64,000 nt of DNA from positions 248,001 to 312,000 of the forward strand of contig NZ_FOMD01000002.1 of assembly GCF_900112525.1 (NCBI RefSeq). The letters are read 5' to 3'. The notes under the pieces were generated by a model, which had not been told where the DNA came from, did not search any database, and worked only from the letters and a program-made list of their open reading frames with translations. Made by a program: the position numbers and the translations under genes. Origin of the DNA: Klenkia taihuensis (GTDB lineage Bacteria > Actinomycetota > Actinomycetes > Mycobacteriales > Geodermatophilaceae). Shown here piece by piece: positions 7,765 through 18,984 of this stretch; the stretch's first letter is position 1, and the number at the start of each line of letters is the position of its first letter.

Positions 7765-9090
7765 ATGGACCGACCGTTGCGGGTGGCCGTCGTCGGGGCC
7801 GGTCCGGCCGGCATCTACGCGGCGGAGGCGCTGGCCGGCCAGGACGAGGTCCCGGTGGCCGTCGATCTGCTGGACCGGCTGCCCACCCCCTTCGGCCTCG
7901 TCCGGCACGGCATCGCGCCCGACCACCTCAAGATGCGCGCGCTGGCGGACACGCTGCGGCACACGCTGGACCACCCGTCGGTGCGGTTCGTCGGCGACGT
8001 CGAGGTGGGCCGCGACCTGTCGGTGGCCGATCTGCGGGCGCACGCCGACGCGGTGGTCTTCACCCACGGCGCCTCGGGGGCTCGCCGGCTCGGGATCGAG
8101 GGCGAGGACCTGCCCGGGAGCCTGGCCGCCACCGACGTCGTCGCCTGGTACACCGGCCACCCGGACGCCGACCGGGCCCGGGTGGAGCAGGCGGTGGCCC
8201 GGGCCCGCGACGTCGTGGTGGTCGGGGTCGGCAACGTGGCCCTGGACGTGGCGCGGGTGCTGGCCCGCGGCCCGGCGGAGCTGGAGACCACCGACATGCC
8301 CCAGCACGTCCTGGACGCGCTGGCCACCGCGCCGGTCGAGCGGATCACGCTGCTGGGCCGGCGGGGTCCCGCGCAGGCGTCCTTCACCACGCAGGAGCTG
8401 CGGGAGCTGGGCCACCTGTCCGCCGCGGTCGCGCTGACCGACCCCGAGGGGCTGGACGAGGAGTCCGAGGTCCGGGCGGTCGCCCGGAACCTGGCGACGC
8501 TGCGGGAGTTCGCCGAGCACGTCCCGGAGCCGGGCAAGGCCACCGTGCGGCTGCGCTTCTTCGCCCGGCCGGTGCGGCTGACCGGCCGGGACCGGGTCAC
8601 CGGCGTGGTCGTGGAGCGGGTGGCGGTCGACCCGGCCGACCGGCTGACGAGCACCCGGGAGACCGAGGAGCTCGCCGCCGACCTGGTCGTCGCCGCCGTC
8701 GGGTACGCCGGGCAGGACCTGCCCGGCCTGCCGGTGTCGGGCGGGGTGGTGCCCAACGAGGGCGGCCGGGTGCTGCGGGACGGCGCGCCGAGCCCCGGCG
8801 AGTACGTGGCCGGGTGGATCAAGCGCGGGCCCAGCGGCGTCGTCGGCACCAACAAGCACGACGCCCGCGAGACGGTGGCCGCGCTGCTGGCCGACGCGCC
8901 GACGCTGCCGCGGGTCGAGGGGCCCGACCTGGTGGAGACGCTGCGGGCACGCGGCTGCCGGCCGGTGCTGCTGGAGAACTGGCGGTCCATCGACGAGGCC
9001 GAGCACGCCCTGGGCGCGGAGCGGGGCCGCGCGCGGACGACGATCCACGAGCGGGAGGCCCTCCGCACCGCCGCCCGCGTGCAGCGTTGA
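7765..9090 (+). CDS. fprA: Ferredoxin/adrenodoxin-NADP reductase-type flavoprotein (FprA-like)
   Basis: A 441-residue FAD/NADP oxidoreductase of the adrenodoxin-reductase (FprA) family, which passes electrons between NADPH and ferredoxins, for example to P450s. The FAD dinucleotide fold is VAVVGAGPAGIYAAEAL at the N-terminus. The family-specific LPTPFGLVRHGIAPDH follows at about residue 40. The NADP site is VVVVGVGNVALDVARVL at about residue 150, and the C-terminal FAD contact is AGWIKRGPSGVVGTNKHDA. ATG 7765 is the natural start. Its stop codon lies inside the left arm of the inverted repeat that begins at 9083. The P450 at 13.3 kb is a conceivable partner (inference). Confidence 0.92.
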   Translation: MDRPLRVAVVGAGPAGIYAAEALAGQDEVPVAVDLLDRLPTPFGLVRHGIAPDHLKMRALADTLRHTLDHPSVRFVGDVEVGRDLSVADLRAHADAVVFTHGASGARRLGIEGEDLPGSLAATDVVAWYTGHPDADRARVEQAVARARDVVVVGVGNVALDVARVLARGPAELETTDMPQHVLDALATAPVERITLLGRRGPAQASFTTQELRELGHLSAAVALTDPEGLDEESEVRAVARNLATLREFAEHVPEPGKATVRLRFFARPVRLTGRDRVTGVVVERVAVDPADRLTSTRETEELAADLVVAAVGYAGQDLPGLPVSGGVVPNEGGRVLRDGAPSPGEYVAGWIKRGPSGVVGTNKHDARETVAALLADAPTLPRVEGPDLVETLRARGCRPVLLENWRSIDEAEHALGAERGRARTTIHEREALRTAARVQR

Positions 9091-9158
9091 TCAGGGAGGT
9101 TGATCCGACTCCGTCCTCCCTCACCAGCTCTGGTGCAGGGAGACGGACTCCCGTGCAG
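9083..9158 (+). repeat. Left arm of a 76-bp inverted repeat
   Basis: Starting with AGCGTTGATCAGGGAGGTTG, this arm matches the reverse complement of 9457-9532 over about 76 positions with roughly nine mismatches; the outer 24 bases are identical. Bases 9110-9147 also form an internal hairpin (TCCGTC...GACGGA with a CACCAG/CTGGTG core) that could act as a bidirectional terminator. The repeat contains the stop codon of fprA (9088-9090). It encloses one small gene. Confidence 0.85.
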
Positions 9159-9176
9159 GAGGACGAACCCCCCGCG

Positions 9177-9449
9177 ATGCCGGTGACGGCGGTGGCGCTG
9201 ATCGCGGCAGCCGTGCTGCACGCCCTCACCTGTCTGCTGCTGACCACCTCGCTGCCGCAGTACGTGCCCGTCGTCTTCGACGCGTCGCTCGAACCGGCCG
9301 TGGCCGGCACGCGGGTGCTCGCCACCGCCCTGGCCCTGGGCGACGGGGTGGTCGTGGCAGGAACCGCGGCCGTCGCCGGGGGGTACCTGGCCTACCTGGT
9401 CACCTGGGCCGTCGCCGTCCGCCGCACCCGGCCCGGCGCCCGCAGCTGA
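9177..9449 (+). CDS. Small two-helix membrane protein inside an inverted-repeat cassette
   Basis: A 90-residue protein with two clear transmembrane helices: residues 2-23 (PVTAVALIAAAVLHALTCLL) and about 42-78 (TALALGDGVVVAGTAAVAGG, continuing into AYLVTWAVAV). A short loop, SLPQYVPVVFDASLEPAVAG, lies between them, and the tail is basic (RRTRPGARS). No family is recognised. AGGAGG lies 15 bases before ATG 9177; an in-frame GTG at 9153 would add eight residues, but then that AGGAGG would be coding. The gene is completely enclosed by the two arms of the long inverted repeat (9083-9158, 9457-9532), so it may have arrived as a unit. Confidence 0.65.
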   Translation: MPVTAVALIAAAVLHALTCLLLTTSLPQYVPVVFDASLEPAVAGTRVLATALALGDGVVVAGTAAVAGGYLAYLVTWAVAVRRTRPGARS

Positions 9450-9456
9450 CCACTCC

Positions 9457-9532
9457 CTGCACCGGGGTCCGTCCTCCTGCACCAGATCTGGCGCAGGAGG
9501 ACGGAGTTGGATCAACCTCCCTGATCAACGCT
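9457..9532 (-). repeat. Right arm of the 76-bp inverted repeat
   Basis: This is the reverse-complement partner of 9083-9158. Its inner hairpin (9468-9505) is an almost perfect 18-bp stem, TCCGTCCTCCTGCACCAG against CTGGCGCAGGAGGACGGA, with a two-base centre. It sits between the convergent 3' ends of the small membrane-protein gene and ppc, where a bidirectional terminator would be useful. Confidence 0.85.
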
Positions 9533-9547
9533 GAGCCCGGGGGCGCC

Positions 9548-14706: not shown

Positions 14707-15571
14707 TCGGCGACCCGCCGGTGACCCCGATGACCTCGCCGGCGGTGAAGCTGGCGTCCTCGCTCGCCAGGTACACGTAGGCCCCGGCCAGCTCCGCCGG
14801 CTGGGCGGCCCGGCCGAGCAGCGCCTGCTCCCCGAAGCCCTCGACCTGGTCGGCGGGCATGGTCGCCGGGATCAGCGGCGTCCAGACCGGCCCCGGGGCG
14901 ACGCAGTTGACCCGCACCCCGACCTGGGCGAACTCGTCGGCCATCGACTTCGTCAGGTTGACCAGCGCCGCCTTGGTGGCGGCGTAGGCAGCCAGGTTCG
15001 GCGAGGGCGTGAACGCCTGCACCGAGCTGGTCACGATGATCGACGACCCGGGGGCCAGCTCGGGCTTCGCGGCCTGCAGCAGCCACAGGAACGCGTAGAC
15101 GTTGGTGCGGAACGTGCGGTCGACCAGCTCGGTGGAGAAGCCGAGGACGTCGTCGACCACGTTCTGGAACGCGGCGTTGTGCACCAGCAGGTCCAGTCCG
15201 CCCAGCCCGTCGACGGTCTGCGCCACCAGGCCCTTGGCGACGGACTCCTCGGCGATGTCACCGGGGAGCAGCAGCGCGGTGCGGCCGGCCTCCCGCACCA
15301 GCCGCGCGGTCTCCTCGGCGTCGGCGTCCTCGGAGAGGTAGGAGATCGCGACGTCGGCGCCCTCCCGGGCGTAGGCGATCGCCACGGCCCGGCCGATGCC
15401 CGAGTCGGCGCCGGTGATCAGCGCCCGGCGCCCCTCCAGCCGGCCGGAGCCGCGGTAGGACTCCTCGCCGTGGTCGGGACGCGGGGTGAGCTCGCCGGCG
15501 CCGCCGGGGTGCTCGACCTGCAACCCGGGGATGGCCGAGGAGGCGGGGTGCTTCGTGCGCGGGTCGATCAC
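14699..15571 (-). CDS. Short-chain dehydrogenase/reductase with N-terminal extension (YghA/GSP39 type)
   Basis: A 290-residue NAD(P)-dependent SDR. An approximately 45-residue hydrophilic extension (IDPRTKHPASSAIPGLQ..., HGEESYRGSGRLEGR) precedes the Rossmann fold, as in glucose/ribitol-type general stress SDRs. Cofactor motif TGADSGIG, structural motif HNAAF (NAA), catalytic Ser in SSVQAF and the YAATK catalytic pair are all present. The C-terminus GEVIGVTGGSPIN is canonical. GTG 15571 overlaps the stop of the upstream LLM gene by four bases (GTGA), so the pair is translationally coupled. Substrate unknown, probably a polyol or aldehyde. Confidence 0.92.
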   Translation of the reverse strand: MIDPRTKHPASSAIPGLQVEHPGGAGELTPRPDHGEESYRGSGRLEGRRALITGADSGIGRAVAIAYAREGADVAISYLSEDADAEETARLVREAGRTALLLPGDIAEESVAKGLVAQTVDGLGGLDLLVHNAAFQNVVDDVLGFSTELVDRTFRTNVYAFLWLLQAAKPELAPGSSIIVTSSVQAFTPSPNLAAYAATKAALVNLTKSMADEFAQVGVRVNCVAPGPVWTPLIPATMPADQVEGFGEQALLGRAAQPAELAGAYVYLASEDASFTAGEVIGVTGGSPIN

Positions 15572-16545
15572 GCGAAGGCCTCCCGCCAGGCCGGCATGAG
15601 CTCCTGCTGCGTCCACTCCAGGTAGGGCTGCTGCTGGTCGCCGCCGATCTGCACGAGCGCGAGGTGGGTGTAGCCGGCGTCGGCGTACTCCTGCGCCGCC
15701 TCGATCACCGCGCCGACGTCGTCCCCGCACGGCAGGGAGCCCTCGACGTCCTCCTCGCGGACGAACTGGCTGGCCGCCTCGAACCCCGCCGTCCCGGGCA
15801 GGTCGGCGTTGACCTTCCAGCCCAGGCCGAACCAGCGGAACAGGTCGTGCGCGCGGGTGACGGCGGCGGACTTGTCGCGGTCGAAGCTGATCGGCATCTG
15901 GCCCACGCGGTTCTTGCCGGCCCCGCCCGCGGCGTCGAACATCTCGCCGAGCTCGGGCTTGGGCTCGGTGCCGATCATGACGTCGGCGTACTCGCCGGCG
16001 AGCTCGCAGGACTGCTTGCCCGAGACGGCGATGCCGATGGGCACCCCGCCCTCGGGCAGGTCCCAGATCTTGGCGCCGTCGGCGTCGAAGTAGTCGCCGT
16101 GGAAGGTGGTGTAGCCGTCGCCGGCGAGCAGCTCCTTGATCAGCTGCACCGCCTCGGCGAACATCTCGTGCCGCACCGCGACCGGCGGCCAGCCCTCCCC
16201 GATGACGTGCTCGTTGAGGTTCTCCCCCGCGCCCAGGCCGAGGGTGAACCGGCCGTCGGCGAGGATCTGCAGGGTGGCGGCCTGCTGGGCGACCACGGCG
16301 GGGCGGTACCGCATGATCGGGCAGGTCACGTAGGTCATCAGGTCGATGCGGCTGGTGGCCTGCGCGGCCGCGCCGAGGGTGACCCAGGCGTTGGGCGCGT
16401 GGCCCATCGAGTCCAGCCACGGGAAGTAGTGGTCGCTGCTGACCGCGAAGTCGAAGCCGACCTCCTCGGCCCCGACCACGTGCGAGACCAGCTCCTTCGG
16501 GCCGGCCTGCTCGGTCATCATCGTGTAGCCCAGCTGCATGCTCAT
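15568..16545 (-). CDS. F420-dependent LLM-class oxidoreductase (TIGR03557-like)
   Basis: A 325-residue TIM-barrel protein of the luciferase-like monooxygenase superfamily, F420-dependent branch, related to F420-dependent glucose-6-phosphate dehydrogenase. Recognisable segments are EEVGFDFAVSSDHYFPWLD, TYVTCPIMRYRPAVVAQQAATLQ, the phosphate-contact LGLGAGENLNEH and IAVSGKQSCELAGEYADVMIG. It implies that the organism makes coenzyme F420. It is the first gene of a two-gene unit with the SDR, suggesting linked redox steps on one substrate (inference). ATG 16545 starts MSMQLGYTMMTEQ, matching the family. Confidence 0.9.
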   Translation of the reverse strand: MSMQLGYTMMTEQAGPKELVSHVVGAEEVGFDFAVSSDHYFPWLDSMGHAPNAWVTLGAAAQATSRIDLMTYVTCPIMRYRPAVVAQQAATLQILADGRFTLGLGAGENLNEHVIGEGWPPVAVRHEMFAEAVQLIKELLAGDGYTTFHGDYFDADGAKIWDLPEGGVPIGIAVSGKQSCELAGEYADVMIGTEPKPELGEMFDAAGGAGKNRVGQMPISFDRDKSAAVTRAHDLFRWFGLGWKVNADLPGTAGFEAASQFVREEDVEGSLPCGDDVGAVIEAAQEYADAGYTHLALVQIGGDQQQPYLEWTQQELMPAWREAFA

Positions 16546-16617
16546 GCCGCGCGCGCTACCCCCGCCGGGGGGATCCCCAACCGCCCCCAGGTCAAGCGCC
16601 GCCTCCCAGCCGGCCGG

Positions 16618-16684
16618 GGCAAGGGAGCCCCTGCACCACGGATGGGCCCCACCCGTGATGGAAGGGATCCCTTGCCTCGGCGGG
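16618..16684 (+). repeat. 67-bp palindromic repeat, copy 1
   Basis: This copy is identical base for base to 17738-17804 and in the same orientation. The unit is itself an imperfect palindrome. GGCAAGGGAGCCCCTGCACC at one end pairs with GGAAGGGATCCCTTGCC at the other, around the centre GGATGGGCCCCACCC. Copy 1 ends five bases beyond the stop of the DUF559-type gene, where it can act as a terminator. Nothing else is visible in the 144-base gap 16546-16689. Confidence 0.9.
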
Positions 16685-16689
16685 ATGGT

Positions 16690-17610
16690 TCAGACGGCGC
16701 ACCGGCCGACGCGGGCGCGGTACACCGCCAACACCTGGGCCCGGACAGCAGCCGGGTCACGGACCACGTCGGCGTAGGTGAACCGGAGCACGAGCCACCC
16801 CGCGGCGGACAGCAGGCGGTCCCGTTCCAGATCCCTGCGGCGGTCCTCCGGCGAGGTGTGGTGGGCAGCCCCGTCCAGCTCGACGACCAGTCCCGCCTCG
16901 GGCCAGCACCGGTCGAGGTAGCAGCGCCGTCCCGGGAGGTCGACACGACGCTGGCCCTGGCTGGGTGGCAGCTCCGGGTGGGCGAAGACCCCGAGCACCC
17001 CCAGCGCCTCGAGCTCGCTGCGGACGCCGTCCAGGACGAGGGCGATGGTCCGGCGCAGCTCGACGTGACCGGCCACGTTCGCCCGCTGCCGGAGCGCGGC
17101 ATCCAACTCCTGACCGGACACCGTGCCGCGCCGGACCAGATCGATCACCGCGGGGCGACGATCACGCAACGGGAGGAGGGGCCAGGAGTCCACTGCGGTC
17201 CTCGCCGGCTCGGTCAGCAGCAGCCCGCGCACGGTGCGGCACATGGGTGGGGCCGCGACGAACCCGGTGCGGCGGTGGACCACCAACCGCGGACCGCCGG
17301 CCAGCCGGCGACCGTGGTCGACGGTGAGGTGGACGGTGCCGCCCAGCGGTTCGCCGCGGTGGAGGGCGAGGGCCGTGAGGTGGCTGAGCGCGGCATCCCG
17401 CATCGCGTACCGCAGAGCCGCCCGTGCCCGCAGCTCGTCGGTCACCGTGGTCGCCGTCGCGACGTAGGTGTGCGGGTGCAGCCGGGTCACCCAGCGGAGT
17501 CTGGTTCCCGCGTCGACGGTGCGGGCCGGGACCGCCTGCAGCAGCTCCTGCCTGGTCGCGATGCCGCCGTGGGCCGCGAGGGCAGCGAGCAGTTCCTTCT
17601 TCCCGGACAC
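16690..17610 (-). CDS. AbiEi-like winged helix plus DUF559 (Vsr-like endonuclease) protein
   Basis: A 306-residue protein. Residues 1-45 (GKKELLAALAAHGGIATRQELLQAVPARTV) form a winged-helix start like that of AbiEi-type antitoxins. Residues about 200-300 resemble DUF559, a PD-(D/E)XK fold related to very-short-patch repair endonucleases. Key residues are the Asp of RCYLDRCWPEAGLVVELDGAAHH, where the ELDG acidic pair fits the active site, and ERDRLLSAAGWLVLRFTYADVV. Such HTH-DUF559 genes are multicopy in many high-G+C actinobacteria and have no established role. It is bracketed by two identical palindromic repeats (16618-16684, 17738-17804). GTG 17610 was chosen because upstream codons run into the repeat. 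Confidence 0.8.
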   Translation of the reverse strand: MSGKKELLAALAAHGGIATRQELLQAVPARTVDAGTRLRWVTRLHPHTYVATATTVTDELRARAALRYAMRDAALSHLTALALHRGEPLGGTVHLTVDHGRRLAGGPRLVVHRRTGFVAAPPMCRTVRGLLLTEPARTAVDSWPLLPLRDRRPAVIDLVRRGTVSGQELDAALRQRANVAGHVELRRTIALVLDGVRSELEALGVLGVFAHPELPPSQGQRRVDLPGRRCYLDRCWPEAGLVVELDGAAHHTSPEDRRRDLERDRLLSAAGWLVLRFTYADVVRDPAAVRAQVLAVYRARVGRCAV

Positions 17611-17737
17611 GGGGCGCACCCTGCACCCGCTGGCGAACGGTCGGGGGCGACGCCTGTGGACAGCTGGGCGCCGTCCACCGATCCGCCGTGCCCCTTGCGC
17701 AGGCGCCGCCCGGCTGCTGCACCCTCTCCCCCGCCGA

Positions 17738-17804
17738 GGCAAGGGAGCCCCTGCACCACGGATGGGCCCCACCCGTGATGGAAGGGATCCCTTGCCTCGG
17801 CGGG
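17738..17804 (+). repeat. 67-bp palindromic repeat, copy 2
   Basis: This is the second identical copy of the repeat at 16618-16684. It lies 128 bases upstream of the DUF559 gene's start and 14 bases beyond the stop codon of the ABC permease gene, so it could terminate that operon. In copy 2 the palindrome extends further: CCGCCGAGG at 17731-17739 pairs with the CCTCGGCGG at its right end, whereas in copy 1 the left flank has diverged. Confidence 0.9.
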
Positions 17805-17817
17805 GAGGAGGCGGATG

Positions 17818-18984
17818 TCAGGCGCGCTCGGCCGTGAGGGCCTCGCGGAGCTTGGTCTTGCCCCCGGTGCGCAGCAGGGCGCCGGCGTAGACCCGGCCGC
17901 CGACCCGGACGACCAGCGCGATGGCGACGGCCATGATCGCCACGGCCAGCAGCACCTGCCAGAGCGGGACGTCGCCGGCGGCCATCCGCACCGGCATCAC
18001 CAGCGGGGTCAGCCCGGGGACGAACGACGTGACGGTGGCCAGGCCCGAACCCGGGTCCTGGCCGGCCTGGATGGAGATGAAGAAGCCGACCACCAGCAGC
18101 AGGGTGGTCGGGGTGAGCACGCTGCCGAGGTCCTCCTGCCGGCTGACCAGCGACGCCGCGGCGGCGAACACCGAGGCGTAGAAGGCGTAGCCGACCAGGA
18201 ACCAGCCGATGACCACGAGCACGGTGCCGATGAGCTGGCCGGGGACGCTGACCACGCCGAGGGCCAGCGCACCGGTCACGCCGACCACGGCGATGAGCAC
18301 CATCTGCGCCAGGCCCAGCACGCCGAGGCCGAGGATCTTGCCGGCCAGCAGCTGCCAGGGCTTCATCGTCGACAGCAGCAGCTCCACGACCCGGGAGGAC
18401 TTCTCCTCCACCACGCCCTGCGCGACGAACTGGCCGAACAGGATGAGCAGGCCGTAGAGCACCACGACGCCCACCAGCGCCACCACGACCGCGGGGCCGT
18501 CGTCCTCGTCGGAGGGGTCGAGCTCGGTGACCGACACGTTCGGCGCAGGCTGCAGGTCCACGCCCTGCGCGGCCAGCTGCGCGCCCACCGACAGCGCGCC
18601 GACCGCGGAGCGCACGATGTCGTCCACGCTGCCCGAGGACTCCACCAGCAGCTGCGGGGAGTCCCCGACCGGGTCGAGGACGGCGCCGTCCACGTCGCCG
18701 TCGCTGACCGCCTGCCGGGCGGCGGCCTCGTCGGGCAGCTCGGTGACGGTGACCGCGGTGCCCGAGGCCTCGCCGGCCTGCTGCAGCGCGGTCTCCACCG
18801 AGGGGTTGCCGCCGACGACGCCGATGGTGGTCGTCGAGGTCCGCCCGCCGGCCACGAGCTGGAAGATCATGACGCCGACGACGAGCAGCACGATGACCAG
18901 CGAGCTGATGATGAAGCCCTTGTCCCGCACCCGGGTGGTGATCTCCCGACGGGCGACCAGCCGGACCTGACCCGCCGCGCTCAC
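17818..18984 (-). CDS. ABC-2 type transporter permease (NatB/YhaP-like)
   Basis: A 388-residue membrane subunit. A cytoplasmic start (GQVRLVARREITTRVRDKGF) leads into TM1, then a large extracytoplasmic domain of about 140 residues, then five or more helices. GQFVAQGVVEEKSSRVVELLLSTMKPWQLLAGKILG is the coupling region typical of NatB-like permeases that work with a single ATPase. GTG 18984 overlaps the ATPase stop by four bases. Together they should extrude Na+, drugs or a metabolite. The gene ends just before palindromic repeat copy 2. Confidence 0.92.
   Translation of the reverse strand: MSAAGQVRLVARREITTRVRDKGFIISSLVIVLLVVGVMIFQLVAGGRTSTTTIGVVGGNPSVETALQQAGEASGTAVTVTELPDEAAARQAVSDGDVDGAVLDPVGDSPQLLVESSGSVDDIVRSAVGALSVGAQLAAQGVDLQPAPNVSVTELDPSDEDDGPAVVVALVGVVVLYGLLILFGQFVAQGVVEEKSSRVVELLLSTMKPWQLLAGKILGLGVLGLAQMVLIAVVGVTGALALGVVSVPGQLIGTVLVVIGWFLVGYAFYASVFAAAASLVSRQEDLGSVLTPTTLLLVVGFFISIQAGQDPGSGLATVTSFVPGLTPLVMPVRMAAGDVPLWQVLLAVAIMAVAIALVVRVGGRVYAGALLRTGGKTKLREALTAERA

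Follow-up and report, generated by a model that had tools for sequence, protein, structure and literature searches.

The AbiEi-like/DUF559 nuclease gene in the window, i.e. the whole 64,000-nt stretch of the Klenkia taihuensis genome analyzed here, and the two palindromes that bracket it occur, or are missing, as one block in related genomes. Many genes of this family are bracketed in the same manner, their palindromes are gene-specific and each gene's pair is of one type. Related lone palindromes occur at gene 3′ ends, where they vary between species. On balance we favor reading the feature as one palindrome–nuclease unit (palindrome, AbiEi-like/DUF559 gene, matching palindrome) whose nuclease would cut the palindromes and cause them to be copied.

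The two repeats are 67 bp long with every base alike (Table 1), and all 43 25-mers that are duplicated on one strand of the window belong to this pair. Of 69 positions, 58 and 56, respectively, are self-complementary, which makes the copies imperfect palindromes. The copy at 17738, folded as 17728–17808, was more stable than every one of 200 dinucleotide shuffles, whether treated as DNA or as RNA of either strand (z-scores of −8.9 for DNA, −8.0 for RNA and −10.2 for RNA of the opposite strand; the shuffle test covered this copy). The original prediction of identical palindromic repeats around a single AbiEi-like/DUF559 gene is borne out by these values and by the domain matches given below. 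A search against Rfam returned 11 matches, all to microRNA families and below the gathering scores, which we regard as generic hairpins and not as a known RNA.

Table 1. Positions of the palindromes, genes and motif discussed in the text (G000 is the window's own genome)
Feature	Position	Strand	Remarks
Palindrome, 3′ side of nuclease gene	16613..16681		identical core 16618–16684; 8 nt past the gene's stop codon
Nuclease gene, 306 aa	16690..17610	−	AbiEi-like N-terminal region and DUF559/MTES_1575 Vsr-type nuclease domain
GTCCACAG motif, presumably DnaA-box-like	17654..17661	−	sole copy in the 64-kb window; upstream of nuclease gene
Palindrome, 5′ side of nuclease gene	17733..17801		identical core 17738–17804; 16 nt past the ABC-2 permease stop codon
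ABC-2 transporter permease gene	17818..18984	−	one border of insertion site
Luciferase-like monooxygenase gene	15568..16545	−	other border of insertion site
Palindrome family J copy	9082..9165	+	cognate DUF559 gene is G000:C3:223211-224050
Palindrome family J, second copy, inverted	9456..9533	−	brackets small ORF 9177–9449 together with the 9082..9165 copy

The protein encoded between the repeats has a DUF559 match in Pfam (E = 2e-10), and the AbiEi models of PADLOC match its residues 13–180 (E = 2.7e-8). Pfam AbiEi_4 gave no match in the window protein itself and matched 8 of 24 relatives from the genus, in which MTES_1575 was found 23 times and DUF559 20 times; Y1 transposase was absent from the seven Pfam families listed for these relatives. 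In an alignment of 24 proteins E201, D233 and E244 are invariant and D246 and H251 nearly so, and these conserved positions are probably the catalytic residues. At E ≤ 1 the family profile hit just two PDB sequences, 3hrl and 3r3p ('Mobile intron protein'), which we count in favor of the unit model; 3r3p we take to be I-Bth0305I. An NCBIfam search gave nothing near a cut-off, and tblastn yielded no match to plasmid or phage copies, the latter counting against the unit model. Genes of the AbiEi-like/DUF559 type are frequent, with 2 to 15 profile matches (E ≤ 1e-15) per genome in 57 genomes of the family. Four genes near the unit encode a luciferase-like protein, an ABC-2 permease, an SDR and an ABC ATPase, the first two lying on the unit's strand. 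In its N-terminal region the window protein resembles AbiE type IV toxin–antitoxin systems by matching AbiEi models, but the same chain carries the nuclease domain and no AbiEii toxin gene adjoins the gene, both adjacent genes being something else. For the ABC ATPase one gene further on, matches were obtained to ABC_tran (5e-31) and to AAA_21 (9e-11), the latter being a model that names AbiEii.

We compared the left and right flanks of genes of this family and scored a locus as bracketed if its flank score reached 16 or higher and exceeded the top score from 100 dinucleotide shuffles by more than 2. In the window's own genome 9 of 11 profile matches pass. For the genus the count is 23 of 27 loci, for the family outside the genus 32 of 60 and for the order outside the family 10 of 15, versus 2 of 241 control genes; the genus and own-genome sets overlap in loci and orthologues are not independent. 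Controls were ORFs of at least 100 aa taken from the window as well as from regions retrieved on account of their palindromes. With a control limit of 60 aa, scores above 18 came from 4 of 270 genes: the window ORF near 9177–9449 and three genes of the DUF559 type. The family set leaves out L222 (contig end), the genus set L042 and L049 (the halves of the homologue in Modestobacter sp. Leaf380) and L057. A null model based on cross-pairing was dropped for the dinucleotide shuffles because it was inflated by the likeness of palindromes between genera. The loci that pass count in favor of the unit model. The loci that fail (2 of 11, 4 of 27, 28 of 60 and 5 of 15 in own genome, genus, family and order, respectively) count against the unit model; at both failures in the own genome, L275 and L278, degenerate matching palindromes are visible by eye. 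Flank sequences differ from gene to gene among the 11 own-genome matches, for most of which no dispersed palindrome family was seen. Genes of this kind are also bracketed in Modestobacter muralis and Blastococcus records.

Hairpins recognized by a covariance model of the window palindrome (window-type model) flank both sides of the window gene, of its orthologue in G006, of the two-frame homologue in Leaf380 (G004, same genus as the window) and of paralogues in G006, G008 and G005, with one weak flank in G005 (E = 0.017). Three further loci carry such a hairpin on one side. The original prediction of an enrichment near DUF559 genes is favored by the window-type hairpins around several such genes and by matched palindromes of other sequence at most genus loci and at about half of the remaining family loci.

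A second shared feature of these genes is found near their start. Counted from 200 nt before to 60 nt after the called start, GTCCACAG or CTGTGGAC is present at 10 of 11 genes in the own genome, 20 of 24 in the genus, 49 of 59 in the family and 3 of 10 in the order, and at 3 of 290 controls. The motif is most often located 57–58 nt before the start codon. We assume that GTCCACAG resembles the actinobacterial DnaA box.

The pairing of gene and palindrome is also seen at locus C, a conserved paralogue that is bracketed in all nine species of the genus by four palindrome types: GGTATCGGAAGC in G000, G001, G002 and G007, GGCAAAGGAAC/GC in G003, G004 and G005, GGCATGGGAGCC in G006 and GGGAGGGGTACCCC in G008. 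Left and right palindromes are of the same type in every species (diagonal mean 28.5 versus 14.3 off the diagonal, permutation p = 0.0003). Furthermore, palindrome similarity rises with protein similarity across 56 bracketed elements (Mantel r = 0.297, reached in 0 of 2000 permutations; segments below 30 nt and five loci were left out), which, like the pairing at locus C, supports the unit model. A covariance model built from 23 copies showed a covariation of 0.227 versus 0.121 after shuffling, a value that none of 500 shuffles reached. Among copies within one genome the stem is conserved and the loop is not, with stem and loop identities of 94 and 54% in G004 (19 copies), 94 and 53% in G003 (8 copies), 96 and 63% in G005 (4 copies) and 94 and 43% in G002 (4 copies), a contrast that counts in favor of the unit model. 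Identities are lower in G001 (78 and 43%, 12 copies) and in two sets of G006 (70 and 33%, 6 copies; 50 and 43%, 3 copies), where alignment offsets may reduce the figures; these lower values count against the unit model. The loops of lone copies have diverged, so that recent copying is not evident for most of them, which is a further point against it.

The insertion site of the window's unit (site A) can be traced in all nine genomes of the genus, the permease and luciferase-like genes being either direct neighbors or flanking the unit. Gene and both palindromes are present in two species, the window's genome and G006, and we count this block-wise occurrence for the unit model. The G006 protein is 78% identical to the window's, and the palindromes differ. 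In the other seven species about 37–110 bp separate the border genes, without gene or palindrome, so that the empty sites proposed earlier do exist in relatives; several sites of family J, described below, are likewise empty. At site A, G007 has one copy of GCGCCTGACCT, imperfect copies of which flank the unit on either side in the window's genome, and G001 carries GCCTGACCT twice around a 15-nt remnant. Read together, these sequences suggest, for this one site, an insertion with target duplication and a later loss in G001; the imperfection of the target-site duplication counts against the unit model. Leaf380 carries a bracketed homologue (67% identical, in two frames) at a different site, site B, which again favors the unit model, and G003 and G006 have a lone palindrome there. 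With regard to a gene that would interrupt its own recognition site, the lone palindromes at site B stand against the absence of any palindrome at the empty sites A. An apparent hairpin of G002 near site B appears, judging by its translation, to belong to a coding sequence and was left out.

The palindromes are not confined to the flanks of nuclease genes. At E ≤ 0.01 with both strands counted, the window-type model has 14 matches in G000, where they are not confined to the bracketing pair, and 36, 30, 44, 55, 21, 50, 6 and 1 in G001 to G008, respectively. We surveyed 60 new regions from about 79 places among the matches listed (five in G000), together with the loci collected earlier. In total 78 hairpins were examined: convergent genes enclose 37 of them, tandem genes another 37 and divergent genes four, and five overlap a called gene; the genes were called with our own script and some contexts may be wrong. 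A neighbor's stop codon lies within 30 nt of 61 hairpins and within 15 nt of 52. Away from bracketed genes, 14 clusters of orthologous lone sites were compared by reading, and the stems differ in 12 and are alike in two; in two of the 12 (G002/G006 and G001/G006) the difference lies mainly in the inner half. Species thus usually carry their own palindrome type at orthologous lone sites. The lone GGCATGGGAGCCC palindromes of G003 had no bracketed cognate gene among the loci looked at, which counts against the unit model.

In the window's genome the palindrome of the window gene itself occurs in few copies, which counts against the unit model. The abundant one is family J, which belongs to a sister gene, a situation that the original prediction did not foresee. 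With ten concatenated own-genome palindromes as query, family J was found at at least 31 places, a lower bound as 40 of 159 candidates were scored: two beside the cognate DUF559 gene, two in the window around 9177–9449 and 27 others, of which 17 were inspected. For each of the other nine palindromes the query copy alone was found, at a threshold that also missed their diverged partner copies. Similarly, 21 fetched copies of the site-B type of Leaf380 comprise two beside the gene, two around small ORFs and 17 alone. We count these cognate copies away from the genes in favor of the unit model. We looked up both flanks of the 17 inspected J sites in G001, G007 and G002, some sites being resolved in part of these genomes. 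Five sites in G001 (0–12 nt between the flanks) and one in G002 have no palindrome, in support of the unit model. A plain short hairpin takes the place of J at L305 (G001, G002), L329 (G001) and L331 (G002), another palindrome family does so at L309 and L316 (G001, G007), and at L321 the G001 flanks enclose a window-type hairpin. Many other J sites have J-like hairpins in the relatives, G002 with a specific stem variant. The seven J sites that were aligned showed no consistent target-site duplication, which counts against the unit model.

Several further arrangements were observed at such sites. The two inverted J copies of the window (9082–9533) enclose a 90-aa ORF without Pfam match, which is possibly a unit with a cargo other than the nuclease. 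At L110 (2477–3432) of G001, two hairpins that both match the window-type model and are unlike each other enclose a NERD nuclease-related gene, and at L127 (2610–3895) of Leaf380 two site-B-type hairpins enclose small ORFs without DUF559 match. At L369, L370, L371 and L350 a palindrome family (CGGACGGTGATCAGGTGACC...) some 105 nt long is found in G001 and G007 where the window's genome has J. That genes other than DUF559 are bracketed as well is counted against the unit model.

How such a unit might work is suggested by its parts. The AbiEi-like N-terminal region would recognize the cognate palindrome and the Vsr/EDxHD-type domain would nick or cut it, perhaps when it is extruded as a hairpin. 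Repair could then copy the unit in full, or just its palindrome, to another site, in a manner akin to homing nucleases or REPtrons. The repeat would thereby spread, the gene would come to lie between two palindromes, the flanking copies would stay alike, and gene 3′ ends would be tolerated sites. Cutting and mobilization by the nuclease are predicted here from sequence comparison.

In a published account, a REPtron consists of a palindrome-flanked gene whose palindromes are also dispersed between genes, with a private family for each gene and several genes per genome (PMC6006769). Family J, with two copies beside its gene and at least 29 other places, and the Leaf380 site-B type, two of whose 21 fetched copies adjoin the gene, fit this picture; for the window gene the likeness is limited, its own palindrome family being small in its genome. 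The enzyme differs, as it is a DUF559/MTES_1575 Vsr-type nuclease and not an HUH/Y1 transposase, and by eye the window copies show no GT[AG]G foot, a feature of RAYT/REP, the base of the palindrome being GCCGAGGC/GCCTCGGC. As no HUH domain was found and the window copies have no GTAG foot, the system would be REPtron-like in its working and not a RAYT. The RAYT/REP resemblance proposed originally thus extends to bracketing, dispersed cognates and private palindromes and stops short of membership. Vsr-type nucleases are not known to form a covalent tyrosine–DNA intermediate, so the copying route would have to differ from that of REPtrons. Judged by sequence, the nearest nucleases with known biology are the EDxHD homing endonucleases, whose related domain is represented by 3r3p among the profile matches. 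I-Bth0305I of this family is reported to dimerize on a target of nearly 60 bp (PMC3943268). This length appears similar to the palindrome lengths found here. In contrast to that system there is no intron or intein, the gene stands free between palindromes and an AbiEi-like region precedes the nuclease; a homing role is putative. Other arrangements outside the classical REP–RAYT pairing have been described, namely dispersed palindromes (CGTC REPs) and tyrosine-transposase genes between terminal repeats (TIRtrons) (PMC3733652). CGTC REPs differ in being without a known dedicated enzyme, and TIRtrons in still using HUH tyrosine transposases.

The palindromes could also be passive. They might act as bidirectional terminators or mRNA 3′-end stabilizers that travel with an accessory gene as an insulated cassette, without any action of the nuclease, their copies being matched by gene conversion or recombination. 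In favor of this reading, convergent or tandem genes border 74 of the 78 hairpins, and most hairpins are close to a stop codon; the plain short hairpins in relatives at three of 17 J sites and the bracketing of a NERD-domain gene (G001) and of small ORFs (G004 and the window) point in the same direction. However, terminators need no conserved stem, yet stems are 94–96% identical in four genomes against 43–63% for the loops, most orthologous lone sites have stems that vary with the species, and matched flanks occur in just 2 of 241 control genes. A terminator scan detected no T-tract terminator at either window palindrome; we rejected a plain terminator on this ground, and position keeps termination among the rivals. 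Taken together, we judge a passive cassette to be unlikely, while giving it more weight than the readings that follow.

Binding sites for a regulator would account for the conservation of stem over loop and for the correlation between palindrome type and protein similarity, since the AbiEi-like domain could bind palindromes to control its own gene and others, the two co-varying like a transcription factor and its sites, with a nuclease that is no mobilizer. An upstream copy is indeed situated 43–122 nt before the start codon in seven DUF559 cases. But this explains neither the copy just past the stop codon nor the sites that are empty in relatives, only 4 of 78 hairpins lie between divergent genes, and GTCCACAG with its preferred position is the better candidate for a promoter operator, which leaves an operator role improbable. 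A misassembly could produce copies that are 100% identical, and a chance local duplication would be unrelated to the gene; as the arrangement recurs with different sequences in other genomes, at orthologous loci as well as at unrelated ones, we regard such an artefact as extremely improbable. More than one of the unit, cassette and binding-site readings may hold.

If the palindrome–nuclease unit is taken further, it may represent a new class of selfish element in Actinomycetota that is built on palindromes; we put this proposal forward tentatively and with more doubt than the unit itself. Here a Vsr/EDxHD nuclease fused to an AbiEi-like DNA reader would cut 3′-end hairpins and put its own palindrome in their place, spread lone palindromes and units, and drive a concerted, genome-wide turnover of hairpins, with up to 11 independent nuclease–palindrome pairs per genome. 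Some bacterial palindromic repeats would then have an enzyme of their own that is not an HUH transposase, and gene-end hairpins could be colonized and swapped by mobile elements. Tying many AbiEi-like/DUF559 genes to a private palindrome provides a testable substrate for a frequent gene family. In the open-access papers searched, seen mostly as titles and beginnings of abstracts, an association of DUF559 with palindromes was not described, and the AbiEi-like/DUF559 form was found without a function.

Bracketing is not universal, as most DUF559 genes across the phylum are unbracketed, which counts against the unit model: 29 of 30 sampled loci were scored (L184, at a contig end, was dropped), and with two own loci left out 5 of 27 reach a score of at least 16, one of them via tandem repeats; the cross-pair null had its 99% level at 14 and a maximum of 19.5. 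In this sample, L167 and L169 are short DUF559 genes flanked on either side by CCCTTGAGGGG-like repeats (scores of 22 and 16, respectively). L187 (G060) is a DUF559 gene with long tandem repeats that are inverted on its two sides (score 146).
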